Source: an uncultured Selenomonadales bacterium
GTDB taxonomy: Bacteria; Bacillota_C; Negativicutes; Selenomonadales; Selenomonadaceae
Assembly: GCA_937916025.1 (NCBI GenBank)
Contig: CALGGX010000126.1
Span: 1 to 9,341 of the forward strand
DNA length: 9,341 nt
Reading direction: 5' to 3'
The notes under the pieces were generated by a model. That model was not told the DNA's origin. It did not search any database and saw nothing but the letters and a program-made list of their open reading frames with translations. The position numbers were made by a program, and so were the translations under genes. Of this stretch, positions 203 to 6,717 are shown piece by piece. The stretch's first letter is position 1. Each line of letters starts with the position of its first letter.

Positions 203-868
203 TCATCCGTTCTTGCAGGCTTTCCTTCTCCCCAAGCCGGGTCCGGCGGCTTCCTCGCCCTTCTGTTGTTCCTCTTGCGCCCTCAGCTCTTTGAACCAAT
301 CGGGGAAGATATCATCGACGGGACACGTTTCGAGCGTTCCGGCTTGGAGCTGATCGATCTGATCTTGCAAGTCTTCAACGAAATCTTCTTTGCCTTCGTC
401 GGCGAAACCGAACCACGACGCCTCGTACATCACATCGACCATCAGCTCATAAATATTTTGTTGAGTGTATTCGTCATCGGACACGAAATAGCCCATGATC
501 TCCGATTGCGGATCGAGATCGTAACCGTAATTGGTTGCCTCCTCGCCCTGCTCGATCACATCCTCGAGGTTCACGTATGGGAAGCACGGTTCGGGCTTAC
601 ACTTCGACAGATCGGAAATAGTTTTGAAAGCATAAAACAATCCGTGTTTGCCGTCCGGCGGTGTGATCTTCAAAAGCCGCAACCGATCGAGATACGCGCC
701 GTAAAATTCTTCAGCGTGCTCGCGTTCCTGTCTGATCGTCTTATAATGAGCCTCCGACTCCTCGTCGCGATAATAGTCAAGAATGTCACGCCGAACGCGG
801 TACAGATAAGAGTCGATCAGCCGCTCTCGATCGAGTTCGCGCAGATGCTGTTGCACTGTCTTCAACAT
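203..868 (-). CDS. Acidic protein of unknown function, paralogue B of a tandem pair (faint DUF6557 resemblance)
   Basis: 221 residues from ATG 868-866. A TTG one codon upstream is also open, but GAGGAG lies 6 bases before the ATG. The protein is paralogous to the gene just upstream: both begin MLKT(I/V)Q..LRELDRE.LI, and both contain DRLR.LK at about residues 61-68, a central EPC...V.L(E/D)(D/E)V(I/L)E.G stretch, and (Q/E)IMG(F/Y).VSDD.YTQ followed by EASWFG(Y/F)ADE at about 150-157. The C-terminal 25 residues (Q/E/K then G/R rich) do not match the paralogue. There is no signal peptide or membrane segment, so it is probably cytoplasmic. From memory the layout, an LG/MG motif followed about 25 residues later by E-x(3)-(F/W)-(F/x)-G-(Y/F), resembles DUF6557, a Bacillota family of unknown function. 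I could not check this. No catalytic motif is visible. Confidence 0.85.
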   Translation of the reverse strand: MLKTVQQHLRELDRERLIDSYLYRVRRDILDYYRDEESEAHYKTIRQEREHAEEFYGAYLDRLRLLKITPPDGKHGLFYAFKTISDLSKCKPEPCFPYVNLEDVIEQGEEATNYGYDLDPQSEIMGYFVSDDEYTQQNIYELMVDVMYEASWFGFADEGKEDFVEDLQDQIDQLQAGTLETCPVDDIFPDWFKELRAQEEQQKGEEAAGPGLGRRKACKNG

Positions 869-871
869 CAA

Positions 872-1595: not shown

Positions 1596-2459
1596 TCAGA
1601 TGAGCCGTTCCAATCCCTCACGAATTGCCTTGCGAATGATCGCATCACGCGCCTTGAGAAAATCCTCAAATTTCAAGACCTCCGTCGGGACGCAATGATT
1701 GATCCTGTATTGTTTATTGATTTCGGTATCGCTTTTGCCGAACTTGCCTTCGACCCACTCATTAAAATCGGTATTGCCCTTGCTCTTATTCTCGCTTTCG
1801 CTGAGCAACTGAAGGTTTGCGAGCGAATTGACTCCGTCGGCGTCCTTGAATTTACTTTTCGGGAACATGTGATCGACATCGTTCTTATCCCTGACGATTT
1901 TCTGATCGTGGAACGTCGCCAGCGCCAATTTCACCGTCTTATCCTTATACTTCACGTCGATAATTTCGGTAATGGTGTTGTCGATGATCGCCTCAACATT
2001 GACGGTGTCGGCGTCGGAGGCAAGCATCTCCCACAGGGGAAAACCGTCGTCGGCTTTGTCCTTCAATATCCCTTGCAATCTGTTGAGAGTGGTGTCACCG
2101 CTCTTGCCGAAAATCCCCTTGATGTTGGCGACGATGAACCACCAGCGAATGCGCTCCCAATCGCCGCCGAATTTCTTATTGTCTTGCTTCAAATGTTCGG
2201 TATTATTATGCTTGTAAATGTAATAGGCGATGGGAATGAGCGAGTTGTTGGAAGCGAAATGATCTTTATTGAAGCCGAACGAATTGATCAGTCGGACAGT
2301 CAGACGAATCGCATCGAGCAACTTATCCCGGTTGGCAGCGATGAACCCCATATTGTCTTTGAAGTTTTGAACCTTGAAATGAACATCGCCGTCGGACAAA
2401 AACAGAAACGTCTTAAGCACGGTATCCTTATCGAGCTCGTACAATGTATTGGCACTCAT
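1596..2459 (-). CDS. Stand-alone C-terminal half of a DUF262/DUF1524 (GmrSD-like) HNH nuclease
   Basis: 287 residues from ATG 2459-2457. The protein matches my knowledge of the second half of DUF262-containing type IV restriction-like proteins. It has the linker block LKTFLFLSDGDVHFKVQNF (about 15-33), a helical core with NNSLIPIAYYIYK (71-83), and a C-terminal DUF1524/HNH region with DHMFPKS (196-202) and NLQLL...N.SKG (215-228). D196 and H197 are the expected nuclease residues. The N-terminal DUF262 NTPase domain, with its DGQQR-type motif, is absent here and from the gene upstream. The start is nevertheless well formed: AGAGGTGATC ends 4 bases upstream, and the ATG overlaps the stop of the previous gene (ATGA). 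Full-length relatives act in restriction of modified DNA. Whether this half cuts DNA alone, needs a partner, or is a remnant cannot be decided here. The gene looks more AT-rich than its neighbours, possibly a sign of transfer. Confidence 0.85.
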   Translation of the reverse strand: MSANTLYELDKDTVLKTFLFLSDGDVHFKVQNFKDNMGFIAANRDKLLDAIRLTVRLINSFGFNKDHFASNNSLIPIAYYIYKHNNTEHLKQDNKKFGGDWERIRWWFIVANIKGIFGKSGDTTLNRLQGILKDKADDGFPLWEMLASDADTVNVEAIIDNTITEIIDVKYKDKTVKLALATFHDQKIVRDKNDVDHMFPKSKFKDADGVNSLANLQLLSESENKSKGNTDFNEWVEGKFGKSDTEINKQYRINHCVPTEVLKFEDFLKARDAIIRKAIREGLERLI

Positions 2460-3232: not shown

Positions 3233-3529
3233 TCAATCACCGTCAAAGTCATCTCTCAATCGCCTTGAAAACTTCCCTGCCTTTATGCTGTCAAGCAAAT
3301 CTTGATGGAAATCTTTCATGAGCTCCACAATGTGCCGGACTTTTTCGGCGGTGTAGCCCTCTACCGTGAAGACCTTGCCTTCCGGAATGCGGAAGACAAC
3401 GCGCTTGTTGTCGTGATTGCTGACCGCCATTTGGAACGATTGACCCATCACTCCGTACACGATGACGGCATCGCCTTTGCCGATCAGATCGTCGTTGAAG
3501 TCGCATTTGGAGAAATCGTATAACGTCAC
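3233..3529 (-). CDS. Small hypothetical protein, 98 aa, downstream of the ADP-ribosylglycohydrolase
   Basis: The start is GTG 3529-3527. AAAGGTGAG lies about 8 bases upstream and overlaps the stop of the ADP-ribosylglycohydrolase gene, so the two genes are 9 bases apart and probably translated from one message. The N-terminal two thirds looks like a small beta domain (DAVIVYGVMGQSFQMAVSN, then RVVFRIPEGKVFTVEGY, residues about 20-59). A helix follows (TAEKVRHIVELMKDFHQDLLDSI, about 60-82), then a charged tail ending DDFDGD. No cysteine cluster, membrane segment or known motif is visible. I do not recognise it. The tight link to the hydrolase suggests a partner or accessory protein, by position only. 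A frame shifted by one base (from 3542) is also open but gives arginine-rich low-complexity sequence and is a shadow. Confidence 0.75.
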   Translation of the reverse strand: MTLYDFSKCDFNDDLIGKGDAVIVYGVMGQSFQMAVSNHDNKRVVFRIPEGKVFTVEGYTAEKVRHIVELMKDFHQDLLDSIKAGKFSRRLRDDFDGD

Positions 3530-3538
3530 TGTCGCATC

Positions 3539-4480
3539 TCACCTTTCAATCGCATTGAAAAACTCCGCCGAAATGTTGTCGAGCAGAGTCTTGTTTTTGA
3601 GCACATCGAGCCACTCGTCGGGAATCTTATCGATGCCGTAAGCAATGCCGCCAAGTCCGCCCGCGATCGCCGCAACCGTATCGGTATCGCCACCGAGATT
3701 GACTGCCTTCAGCGCGAGCTCCCGATAGTTCGTCGTGTTGAGCAAACACCAAACCGCCGCTTCGAGACTGTCAACGACGTAGCCGCTGCTCTTGATCGCA
3801 TCTTCATCGAACGCGTCGAACTTCGGATCAAGCAACCGCTCGAAATGTTTCAGTTCTCCGGCGAAGTCTTTGCGATAGAACTCTTCCGCGCGGCTCGTTC
3901 CGATCGATACCGCCTCGGCGATCGTTTTGCCGTCGATCAACTGCTCCGCAATCAGACAGTACATCCCGCACGAGATCATGCTCCGAGCATGCGCGTGCGT
4001 CAACGCCGAGATTTTTTCGATCGCTTCCAAGCTCGACTCATCGATCGGTTTGCAATAAAACGCCATCGGCAGGATCCGCATCAGCGAGCCGTTGCCGTTC
4101 GAGCCCCCTTCCGTCAACCCGCACTGAGAGATCGGAACGCCGTCGAGAAAACGCTCGATCGCCGTCGCCGTCGTGTTGCCGACATCAAAACAGTGATTGT
4201 TGGCGGTGAACTCGTCGTTCTCAAGCCACTCGACGAAATTATTCATGATGTCCTCGAGATCGAGCTTTTTGAGCCGTGCAATACTTTCCATCGTTGCGAT
4301 CATCATGCCGGTGTCGTCCGACCAAGTACCCGCCGGTTGATCCCACACGCCGCCGTCCGTCATGCCCTCGACGGGATTTTTGCGAAGTCTCGCGCGGCTC
4401 ATAAATTCGACGGGCACGCCCAACGCGTCCGCCACCGCCAGCCCGTACACCATCGACCGCACCGTTTTCAATTCGATCAT
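3539..4480 (-). CDS. ADP-ribosylglycohydrolase (DraG/ARH family)
   Basis: 313 residues from ATG 4480-4478, which has GGAGGG 7 bases upstream. An upstream in-frame TTG at 4501 would place that site inside the gene. This family removes ADP-ribose from modified proteins or nucleic acids using two Mg ions. The hallmarks are present in order: G-x(4)-DALG (13-21), TWSDDTGM (52-59; metal-binding T, D, D), GGSNGNGSLMR (125-135), ALTHAHA (159-165), and GGDTDTVAAIAGGLGG (263-278; metal-binding D265, D267 and T268). Length and all-helical layout match full-length DraG-type enzymes, so it is likely active. The substrate is unknown: no ADP-ribosyltransferase is recognisable in the window, nor nitrogenase genes that would suggest classic DraG. 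The gene follows the helical paralogue by 22 bases in the XRE-led train. In such settings these enzymes can reverse a toxin's ADP-ribosylation, but that role is inference. Confidence 0.93.
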   Translation of the reverse strand: MIELKTVRSMVYGLAVADALGVPVEFMSRARLRKNPVEGMTDGGVWDQPAGTWSDDTGMMIATMESIARLKKLDLEDIMNNFVEWLENDEFTANNHCFDVGNTTATAIERFLDGVPISQCGLTEGGSNGNGSLMRILPMAFYCKPIDESSLEAIEKISALTHAHARSMISCGMYCLIAEQLIDGKTIAEAVSIGTSRAEEFYRKDFAGELKHFERLLDPKFDAFDEDAIKSSGYVVDSLEAAVWCLLNTTNYRELALKAVNLGGDTDTVAAIAGGLGGIAYGIDKIPDEWLDVLKNKTLLDNISAEFFNAIER

Positions 4481-4502
4481 TGCAATTCCCTCCGCAATCA
4501 AT

Positions 4503-5327
4503 TCAAGGCAAACGTTTCCACGGCTTTTCGATCAACTCTCGACGCCGCTCCCAACGCTTGACATCTTTATCGCGCCCGAGTTCTTTCAACAATTCGATTG
4601 CCATGACCGCCTGCCGGAGATTCCAATCCCGAACGTCCGAGTCCTCACCGTTGTCGATGTTGTCACGCAGTCTTTCGACCTTTTTGAGCAGAATGCGCTC
4701 ATAAATTTTTTGTGCAAGTTTCGGCTCACCGAAGGCGATCAATATCCGTTTGAGTTTGCGAGCCGACACGACCGACACAATATCGTCGCGTTTCGACAAT
4801 CGCTCAAGTTCGTCAAGGTCGTCAAAGATCGTCCGTCGAAGTTCTTCGTGCTCCGACAGTTGATTGACATTGAGAAGTGCGTCCGCATAATCGAGCACCG
4901 GCGTCGATTCACTGAACAGGGAATCGGGGATCGGATATTTTTTCGACAGCTCATAATCGAGCCGTGTAACTTTCAATTGATCTACGCCGCTCCAATCGTC
5001 GAGCTCATTGCAGGATCTGACGATGATCTTCACCGTATGAAACAGCAATTTATTTGTTTCGTCCGACGCCTCCGCATTCGACAGAGCATCATACGCCGCC
5101 AACGCATATTTTTTGGTGCTGTCATAAATCCGTCCTTCGATGTCGAGTTGTGCGTGCTCGACTGAAAGAAATGCATACTCGAATCCGCGCGACTCATTTT
5201 CGATCTCCTTGAGCAATTCTTTGATCACCGAATACATTTCGCCCGCAAAACCGTAGACGCCGATCGCATCGAAATCGGCAACAGCTTGTTTTTGAGCCCG
5301 CTCATACTTCTCGATCACATCACTCAA
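4503..5327 (-). CDS. Helical protein of unknown function, intact member of a tandem pair
   Basis: 274 residues. I place the start at TTG 5327-5325, which overlaps the TGA of the upstream paralogue (TTGA) and has GGAGG 8 bases upstream. The longer frame to 5387 would overlap the paralogue by 64 bases and adds unsupported sequence. The protein is almost all helix and rich in charged residues. Strong blocks shared with the upstream copy are RGFEYAF (47-53), CNELDDWSGVD (106-116), LSEHEEL (157-163), ARKLKR.LIA.G (189-200), ERILL (210-214), DWNLRQA (234-240) and LLKELGRD (246-253). The spacing of helices suggests a TPR-like or other alpha-alpha repeat fold, so a binding rather than catalytic role is likely. 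No signal peptide, membrane segment or metal motif is seen. I do not recognise the family. Confidence 0.85.
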   Translation of the reverse strand: MSDVIEKYERAQKQAVADFDAIGVYGFAGEMYSVIKELLKEIENESRGFEYAFLSVEHAQLDIEGRIYDSTKKYALAAYDALSNAEASDETNKLLFHTVKIIVRSCNELDDWSGVDQLKVTRLDYELSKKYPIPDSLFSESTPVLDYADALLNVNQLSEHEELRRTIFDDLDELERLSKRDDIVSVVSARKLKRILIAFGEPKLAQKIYERILLKKVERLRDNIDNGEDSDVRDWNLRQAVMAIELLKELGRDKDVKRWERRRELIEKPWKRLP

Positions 5328-6137
5328 CGTAATCGCCTCCGATCGTTCCGACGGCTCGCAATCAATTCGCGATACGTCGTCCACCATTTGAGATCATCTT
5401 CGCGCCCCAGTTCCTTCAGCAGTTCGAGCACCTCGTCCGCCTGTGACAGATTCCAATTGCGCATGCCTTCGGGATCATAGCAATCGTTATGAATGTTGTC
5501 GCTACAGTTTTCAATCCGATAGAGCAATATCCGTTCAAACATCTTATTCGCGCGTTTTTTCGACCCGCATGCAATCAGCACCCGCTTGAGCTTATGCGCA
5601 AACATAACTCCGTCATGGCAACGCGTCAGCTTCAGGCAGTTGTTGACGATAAACTTCTGCAGCTCCTCATGCTCCGACAGTTGATCGACGGCAAGAAAGG
5701 TGTCCGCATATTCGACCGCCGCTTCAATCAACAAATGATCGGAACGAAATCTCGGTGCCAACTCATAATTGATCCGCGTGATCTTCAATCGATCGACGCC
5801 GCTCCAATCGTCGAGCTCATTGCACGCGTCGACGACGATATCAGCCGCATCATTCAACCGCTGATCAACTTCATCGGACTTTGGCAGAGTCAACAGCAGA
5901 TCGATCGCCGCCGCCCCGTATTCTTTCACCCGCGCATAATCTTTCAAGTCCCGATCATACACCGCGTGTTCGAGCAAAAAAAAATGCGTATTCAAATCCG
6001 CGCGGAGCATTCTCGAGCACCTTCAAATTTTTTTCGATCGCCTTGAGCATGTACTTCGCCGTGCCCTCACGTCTGAGATGCCAATACATGTTATCGACCG
6101 CGTCTTTCAGCCGATTGTACTCTTCGATCGTCGCAAT
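5324..6137 (-). pseudogene. Frameshifted paralogue of the helical protein (T9 run)
   Basis: Two overlapping frames together reproduce the sister gene. The first, from about 6137, reads IATIEEYNRLKDAV... to RGFEYAFFF and then stops at 5957-5955. The second, open from ATG 6010, carries on from LLEHAVYDRD to the stop at 5326-5324. They meet at nine T on the coding strand (5984-5976). With eight T the sequence reads EYAFFLLEHA, aligns without gaps to EYAFLSVEHA in the sister, and gives about 270 codons against 274. GGAGG lies just after the regulator's stop, but the expected start has no ATG, GTG or TTG near it: ATT 6137 is closest, and the first in-frame ATG is 6089. An internal ATG at 6010 with GAAGGTG upstream might still allow a 228-residue product. 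It could be a decaying gene, a phase-variable gene, a slippage-expressed gene or a base-call error. Confidence 0.8.
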
Positions 6138-6146
6138 CGCCTCCGA

Positions 6147-6635
6147 TCACTCCCGTTTGATCAACTTGTCGAGGAATGCCCTGCGCTCGTCCCGAATGTG
6201 TTGGTCGAACTGACGCATCGCATTTTGAGTGTACCGCACGAACACCTCTCGACTTGCAAACGAAATTTTTTCCTGCGTCGCCGGTTTGTAGTCGAGTACA
6301 TTGCTGTCGTCCGCCTTAAAAAATTTTTCCTGCTCGACCTCTCGCACCAAGTTGATGATCCCTCCGTCGTCGATCTCCACCGCATAGCCCGCCGAGCTCC
6401 AATACTCCTCCGCTTCCGTGAACAGCATCGTCTTATATCCCAGCAGATCGTTCGGCGTCGTCCCGAGCATGTCCGATATCTTGATCAGATTCTCGACCGT
6501 CGGATATCGCCTGCCGCGCTCAAAATCGCCGTAACTCACCAACGTCATCTGCAGCTCGTCCGCCATCTGCTGCCGTGAGATGTCTGCCTCCTTCCTCATT
6601 CTTCTCAATCGATCGGCGAATTTTCCTATCGACAT
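6147..6635 (-). CDS. XRE-family helix-turn-helix transcriptional regulator
   Basis: 162 residues from ATG 6635-6633, preceded by GGAGG at 8 bases. Earlier in-frame starts up to 6671 lie over the promoter and are unlikely. An HTH_3/Cro-CI type domain spans residues 5-67: FADRLRRMRKEADISRQQMAD, then the recognition region VSYGDFERGRRYPTVENLIKIS and MLGTTPNDLLGY. The remaining 95 residues have no recognised enzymatic motif. They include TEAEEYWSSAGYAVEID and a charged helical end, and probably serve oligomerisation or signal sensing. There is no LexA-like Ser-Lys protease motif and no ImmA-type HExxH partner. It is the first gene behind the promoter and lies just before the frameshifted helical gene, so it likely controls itself and the train downstream. 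Its N-terminal part uses AGA and AGG codons more than the neighbouring genes do. Confidence 0.9.
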   Translation of the reverse strand: MSIGKFADRLRRMRKEADISRQQMADELQMTLVSYGDFERGRRYPTVENLIKISDMLGTTPNDLLGYKTMLFTEAEEYWSSAGYAVEIDDGGIINLVREVEQEKFFKADDSNVLDYKPATQEKISFASREVFVRYTQNAMRQFDQHIRDERRAFLDKLIKRE

Positions 6636-6658
6636 TGTTTTGTCCTCCATCTGTTGAT

Positions 6659-6687
6659 AATGTATCACCAATTATAGCCTGTGTCAA
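6659..6687 (-). promoter_or_regulatory. Sigma70-type promoter of the XRE-led gene train
   Basis: The minus strand carries a perfect -35 TTGACA (6687-6682), a 17-base spacer, and -10 TACATT (6664-6659) preceded by TG at the extended -10 position. Just upstream is a run of eleven A (6700-6690) that could act as an UP element. Transcription would start near 6652, leaving a leader of under 20 bases with GGAGG. A TATAAT (6676-6671) lies in the spacer but has no -35 at usable distance. An imperfect repeat, TTGATA at 6653-6658 and TGTCAA at 6682-6687 (plus strand), brackets the promoter and could be an operator for the regulator; this is speculative. Confidence 0.6.
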
Positions 6688-6717
6688 TGTTTTTTTTTTT
6701 ATATTATGAGATGTCGA

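Follow-up and report, generated by a model that had tools for sequence, protein, structure and literature searches.

Gene A, which forms a tandem pair of paralogues with gene B behind an XRE-type regulator, loses its reading frame through a single base in a run of nine T. The account that seems probable is that a dispensable tandem copy in a fast-changing neighbourhood lost its frame recently, perhaps in a leaky way, and that this is not a dedicated on/off switch. The window, i.e., the whole 9,341-nt stretch that was analysed, comes from an uncultured Selenomonadales bacterium that is probably a rumen bacterium. A frameshift is present in the sequence as given, be it real or made in assembly, and intact copies of the gene exist elsewhere; the recency and leakiness of the break and the dispensability of the copy are inferred. 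In the favoured account, a synonymous change in the lineage of the window would have turned a T-rich phenylalanine–leucine stretch into a lengthy run of T, where the gain of one base would then have shifted the frame, an order of events drawn from a single DNA relative. The recent break would have been tolerated because gene A would be dispensable. Gene A is probably not a complete null, since the full frame may be present in a minority of its transcripts.

Table 1. Features of the regulator–A–B region, in window coordinates
Feature	Position	Strand	Remarks
Promoter-like site TTGACA-17-TACATT before the regulator, beside the T11 run	6659..6687	-	10/12 matches; conserved in L001
XRE-type regulator (HTH_3, 4e-12) just upstream of gene A	6147..6671	-	L001 protein 98.3% identical; likely ATG (MSIGKF) within the listed ORF
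17-nt GGAGG-bearing repeat between regulator and gene A	6132..6148	-	Family D6; 94% twin ahead of gene B at 5328-5344
Gene A upstream piece, first canonical ATG to premature stop, 44 aa	5955..6089	-	Frame open from the regulator stop (6147) onward
T9 run, site of frame loss in gene A	5976..5984	-	Nine A on the + strand; opposite T6-C-T in L001
Gene A downstream open frame, 228 aa from its own ATG 6010, with most conserved blocks	5324..6010	-	Identity 91% (P0001) and 89% (P0002) across 92% of the frame
Gene B, the intact sister of 274 aa, whose TTG start overlaps the gene A stop; predicted TPR-like helical solenoid	4503..5327	-	P0010; predicted structure

The preliminary description had placed a one-base frameshift at the T9 run (5984-5976), and the frames on either side of the run confirm it. 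In the ORF listing, the frame that comes after the stop of the XRE regulator ends at 5957-5955, while the next frame across the run stays open, with no other stop, until 5326-5324. The RGFEYAF motif lies upstream of the run, and LLEHAVYDRD and CNELDDWSGVD lie downstream. Both pieces align with gene B without gaps, from about IEEY/IEKY through about gene B residue 133, and gene B is, as had been claimed, an intact paralogue of 274 aa in a single frame. Restoring the frame of gene A takes the loss of one base or the gain of two.

Relatives of gene A read straight through the break point. P0001 (11 member sequences) and P0002 are intact single frames there, with AFFLLEH and AYFLLEH, respectively. 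P0003, which is intact, full length and 58% identical, is a possible third copy type and was used solely as an outgroup. The sole genome locus found, L001, is a contig 23,488 bp long in a Selenomonadaceae MAG recovered from the rumen of roe deer. Its synteny with the window takes in a calcineurin-type phosphoesterase, the XRE regulator, A, B, an ADP-ribosylglycohydrolase, a 236-aa protein, a GmrSD-type gene and two DUF6557-like proteins. Among 199 relatives of the L001 genome, one gave a match, as did one of 189 genomes in an overlapping family set, and in both cases it was L001's own genome (G001). The plasmids, phages and viral contigs searched gave no relative.

A comparison of the tract with a relative had been proposed earlier, and L001, one DNA relative, supplied it. 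At the tract, L001 encodes identical amino acids in a continuous frame through T6-C-T. The T9 run is thus not kept in this relative, and a conserved switch is unsupported and was rejected. A substitution and the gain of one base may have produced the run in the window, or the run may have been interrupted in L001, the direction being read from two sequences.

The beginning of gene A is less well kept. The corrected protein had been put at about 270 codons, but there is no ATG, GTG or TTG near the beginning of such a frame. At the position of gene B's TTG start, gene A reads ACG in L001 as it does in the window. The earliest canonical start codon is ATG 6089, which gives a protein of the same length as P0001, 254 aa. 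Between the window and L001, dN/dS in gene A is 0.72 over the 54 codons before the run, 0.36 over the 130 codons after it and 0.09 over 41 codons past a deletion in L001, values that compare two broken genes in small samples and cannot date the break. The corresponding values are 0.26 for gene B, 0.03 for the regulator, 0.28 for the ADP-ribosylglycohydrolase and 0.11 for the phosphoesterase. Because the upstream piece is fast and ACG stands opposite gene B's TTG, the comparison suggests that the N-terminal part of gene A was already weakly constrained or that an internal ATG is the true start. The frameshift may have struck a gene that was already weakening.

The part of gene A beyond the run shows little sign of age. 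Across 217 aligned positions after it, residues that differ from both other proteins where those two agree number 9 in the window, 9 in P0001 and 13 in P0002. With no further stop and no surplus of amino-acid change, old decay was rejected for the downstream frame, as the preliminary description had argued. That description had also taken further inactivating lesions in relatives as a sign of simple decay; this sign is present in part, L001 having its own 125-bp deletion in gene A. Since the shifted frame shows no surplus of amino-acid change, the break is either recent or an error of assembly.

An error of sequencing or assembly in the homopolymer, with gene A in fact intact, is unlikely, and several observations fit it. 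The T9 frameshift is the only frame-breaking indel noticed among genes common to the window and L001, and the homopolymer that holds it is the longest within coding sequence in the window. A search for other copies broken at the same site, with the 44-aa upstream fragment as query, found no independent copy, a weak result since very short ORFs are often uncalled. The undecayed downstream frame is also what an error would leave. Against this, nine-base runs would usually be correct if read by short reads, and other family members are broken by lesions that are impossible as homopolymer errors. The window has two homopolymers of at least nine, the second being an intergenic T11 at 6690-6700, where 500 first-order Markov simulations average 0.21. 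The L001 genome has 64 A/T runs of at least nine in ~2.9 Mb, or ~0.2 per 9.3 kb.

Reversible phase variation, in which replication slippage in the run would switch gene A within a population, is decidedly unlikely. A run of nine inside an otherwise well-kept frame, undecayed downstream, is in its favor, and so is the coexistence of on and off forms in the family, where B occurs both intact (P0012) and split by a frame-breaking duplication (P0018 and P0015), the two being otherwise almost identical. However, the run is missing in L001, and known contingency tracts tend to be longer than nine T. The genome of L001 also gives little sign of genes split at such runs. A homopolymer screen there returned 88 pattern matches that merged into the 64 A/T runs of at least nine. 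An open frame totalling at least 150 codons, on either strand, spans 24 of the 64, a count that overstates coding runs because antisense frames are counted and even L001's promoter run (L039) is included. A script flagged six of the 64 as split-like (L014, L020, L024, L032, L061 and L062), and the five that were read, all but L032, yielded no convincing split gene. L024 is terminator-like instead, L014 looks like a gap between two genes, and L020, L061 and L062 have no clear gene on both sides.

Selection against A/T runs in genes is reported to start at nine in many bacteria, and the same source describes genes in which a frameshift creates a slippage-prone run of nine, with some full product still expected (PMC1088944). 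Slippage by Escherichia coli RNA polymerase is described as needing at least seven T, a reporter with T8 showing ~10% slippage by deletion (PMC6260861), and in tssM1 a frameshifted gene is reported to be rescued at A11 (PMC4256274). Because published reporters show bacterial RNA polymerase slipping on T7 or longer, it is plausible by analogy that some in-frame gene A RNA is made.

The pieces of gene A could alternatively be two separate genes, with the downstream frame translated alone as a shortened solenoid, and this is very improbable. Its in-frame ATG 6010 lies 26 bases ahead of the run, as such an arrangement would need, but the first two helices of the fold (by the gene B model) would be swapped for an unrelated short peptide, and the arrangement is not seen in the intact orthologues. 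Programmed recoding, with slippage selected to yield two products, has precedents at nine T or A (mxiE, dnaX) and at 11 A (tssM1) in the reports of PMC1088944 and PMC4256274, but it is scarcely credible here: the run and two-frame layout was not found in the homologues (L001 DNA is without the run; P0001 and P0002 are single frames), and the common -1 ribosomal frameshift, also rejected as a mechanism, lands in the third frame with a stop ~12 codons further on.

The favoured account, loss of frame in a dispensable copy, draws on the wider history of the pair, which has been broken more than once. The 125-bp deletion in L001's gene A is out of frame, lies near the 3' end and is separate from the T9 lesion; P0017 has this break too. 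A set of 20 proteins, drawn from the best 7996 candidates scored, was sorted by eye. It holds two intact A proteins (P0001 and P0002), two that are A broken or hybrid with a break (P0004 and P0017), seven full-length B proteins (P0006, P0007, P0008, P0009, P0010, P0012 and P0013), five altered or broken B entries (P0011, P0014, P0015, P0018 and P0019), one A/B hybrid (P0005) and three others (P0003, which is full length, P0016 and P0020). In the altered B entries, P0014 has a shortened end, P0011 a replaced inner stretch and P0019 several inner gaps.

Two of these proteins join parts of A and B. P0005 is A-like ahead of CNELDDWSGVD and B-like beyond it, and P0017, from another Selenomonadaceae record, starts like B and has the abnormal tail seen in L001's gene A product, making it a B/A hybrid. 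Genes A and B (window 4503-6146; L001 2125-3645) share 29 identical bp at CNELDDWSGVD in the window, set against an overall dS of ~1.45, and the junctions of both hybrids fall at this block. P0005 and P0017 may be real recombinants or assembly chimeras. A further pair of entries resembles a B gene in two pieces. P0018 equals P0012 over the first 101 residues and then passes into another frame, while P0015 equals P0012 from residue 94 onward (180/181, the mismatch being the start residue). The tail of P0018 resembles an other-frame reading of the same L001 stretch at 10 of 17 residues, judged by eye, and the longest contigs of P0015 and P0018 are of equal size, 8087. The two would fit an out-of-frame tandem duplication that split B.

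Short contigs and assembly chimeras can account for part of the broken and hybrid forms. Because the sister gene B is intact and the pair is often broken or recombined in relatives, gene A seems dispensable, and its neighbourhood seems unstable. A bolder and improbable proposal is that regulator–A–B varies as a module within a gene island of the rumen, its solenoid genes turned off, turned on or reshaped through several reversible or recombining events, namely changes in run length, frame-breaking tandem duplication and A/B exchange at the 29-bp block that gives hybrids.

Other parts of the neighbourhood also differ between the two loci. Just ahead of the promoter-like site of the XRE operon lies an A-rich run, A11 on the coding strand in the window (6690-6700) and A10 in L001 (1569-1578), with substitutions in the flanks as well. 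Promoter-like sites number four in the window against 1.4 in shuffles. The GmrSD/HEC-05-like gene of the window (1596-2459, 287 aa) is without the N-terminal ~300 residues, including GmrSD_N, that are present in the L001 gene (5660-7423, 587 aa), and the common part is 43% identical. A second tandem pair (window 203-871 and 872-1585) is DUF6557-like in both members, the second above the Pfam cut-off and the first just below it; the L001 proteins are 208 and 274 aa long versus 237 and 222 aa in the window. The ADP-ribosylglycohydrolase is found in both loci, and a protein with a microbial-type PARG domain follows further on in L001, giving two ADP-ribose hydrolases in one island (window 3539-4501; L001 8863-9753). 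Between the ADP-ribosylglycohydrolase and the 236-aa gene, the window has a 98-aa ORF (3233-3529) with no long L001 DNA match and no Pfam family above cut-off.

The A/B family has no above-chance sequence match in Pfam, NCBIfam or the PDB sequences, where a search with profile A4 gave as its best hit a designed helical protein (E 0.056); PADLOC matched neither gene A nor gene B. The downstream frame of gene A is 46% identical to the gene B protein, P0010. A structure model of that protein (mean pLDDT 86.3, pTM 0.79) predicts a TPR-like helical solenoid, and its fold comparison scores match what helical repeats reach in general. Judged from the fold, the solenoid protein could possibly be a partner of the neighbouring XRE regulator.

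The peptide-sensing TPR solenoids of Rap, PlcR and NprR offer one comparison. Like them, the gene B protein has an all-helical repeat fold, in its case predicted, and its gene is found beside an XRE-type regulator; it differs in having no above-chance match by sequence and in being a chain separate from the HTH protein. The hybrids of this unnamed tandem pair and its repeated independent breaks in rumen Selenomonadaceae make it a small lead on a gene island that evolves fast and in which ADP-ribose hydrolases and a GmrSD/HEC-05-like gene also lie. As a lead, the break in gene A is ordinary in kind and of less interest than the wider instability of the pair.

The closest parallels to the break itself are the 'pseudo pseudogenes' of Baranov et al. 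2005 (PMC1088944), in which, as that paper describes them, a frameshift extends eight identical bases to a slippage-prone nine, a fraction of the RNA may stay intact and full-frame relatives exist. Gene A shares these features, with its frameshift inside a run of nine A/T and intact homologues (P0001, P0002 and L001 across the site) that read through. The described cases concern A runs in many genomes, whereas gene A has a T run, one DNA relative and is known from DNA alone. If it is leaky, gene A should not be annotated as dead, a caution that extends to frameshifts in runs of nine A/T in general. As reported in PMC1088944 and PMC4256274, mxiE (T9) and tssM1 (A11) are, like gene A, split over two frames at a run of similar length; in those genes slippage was shown experimentally and is needed for function, whereas in gene A, read from sequence only, the run is not conserved.
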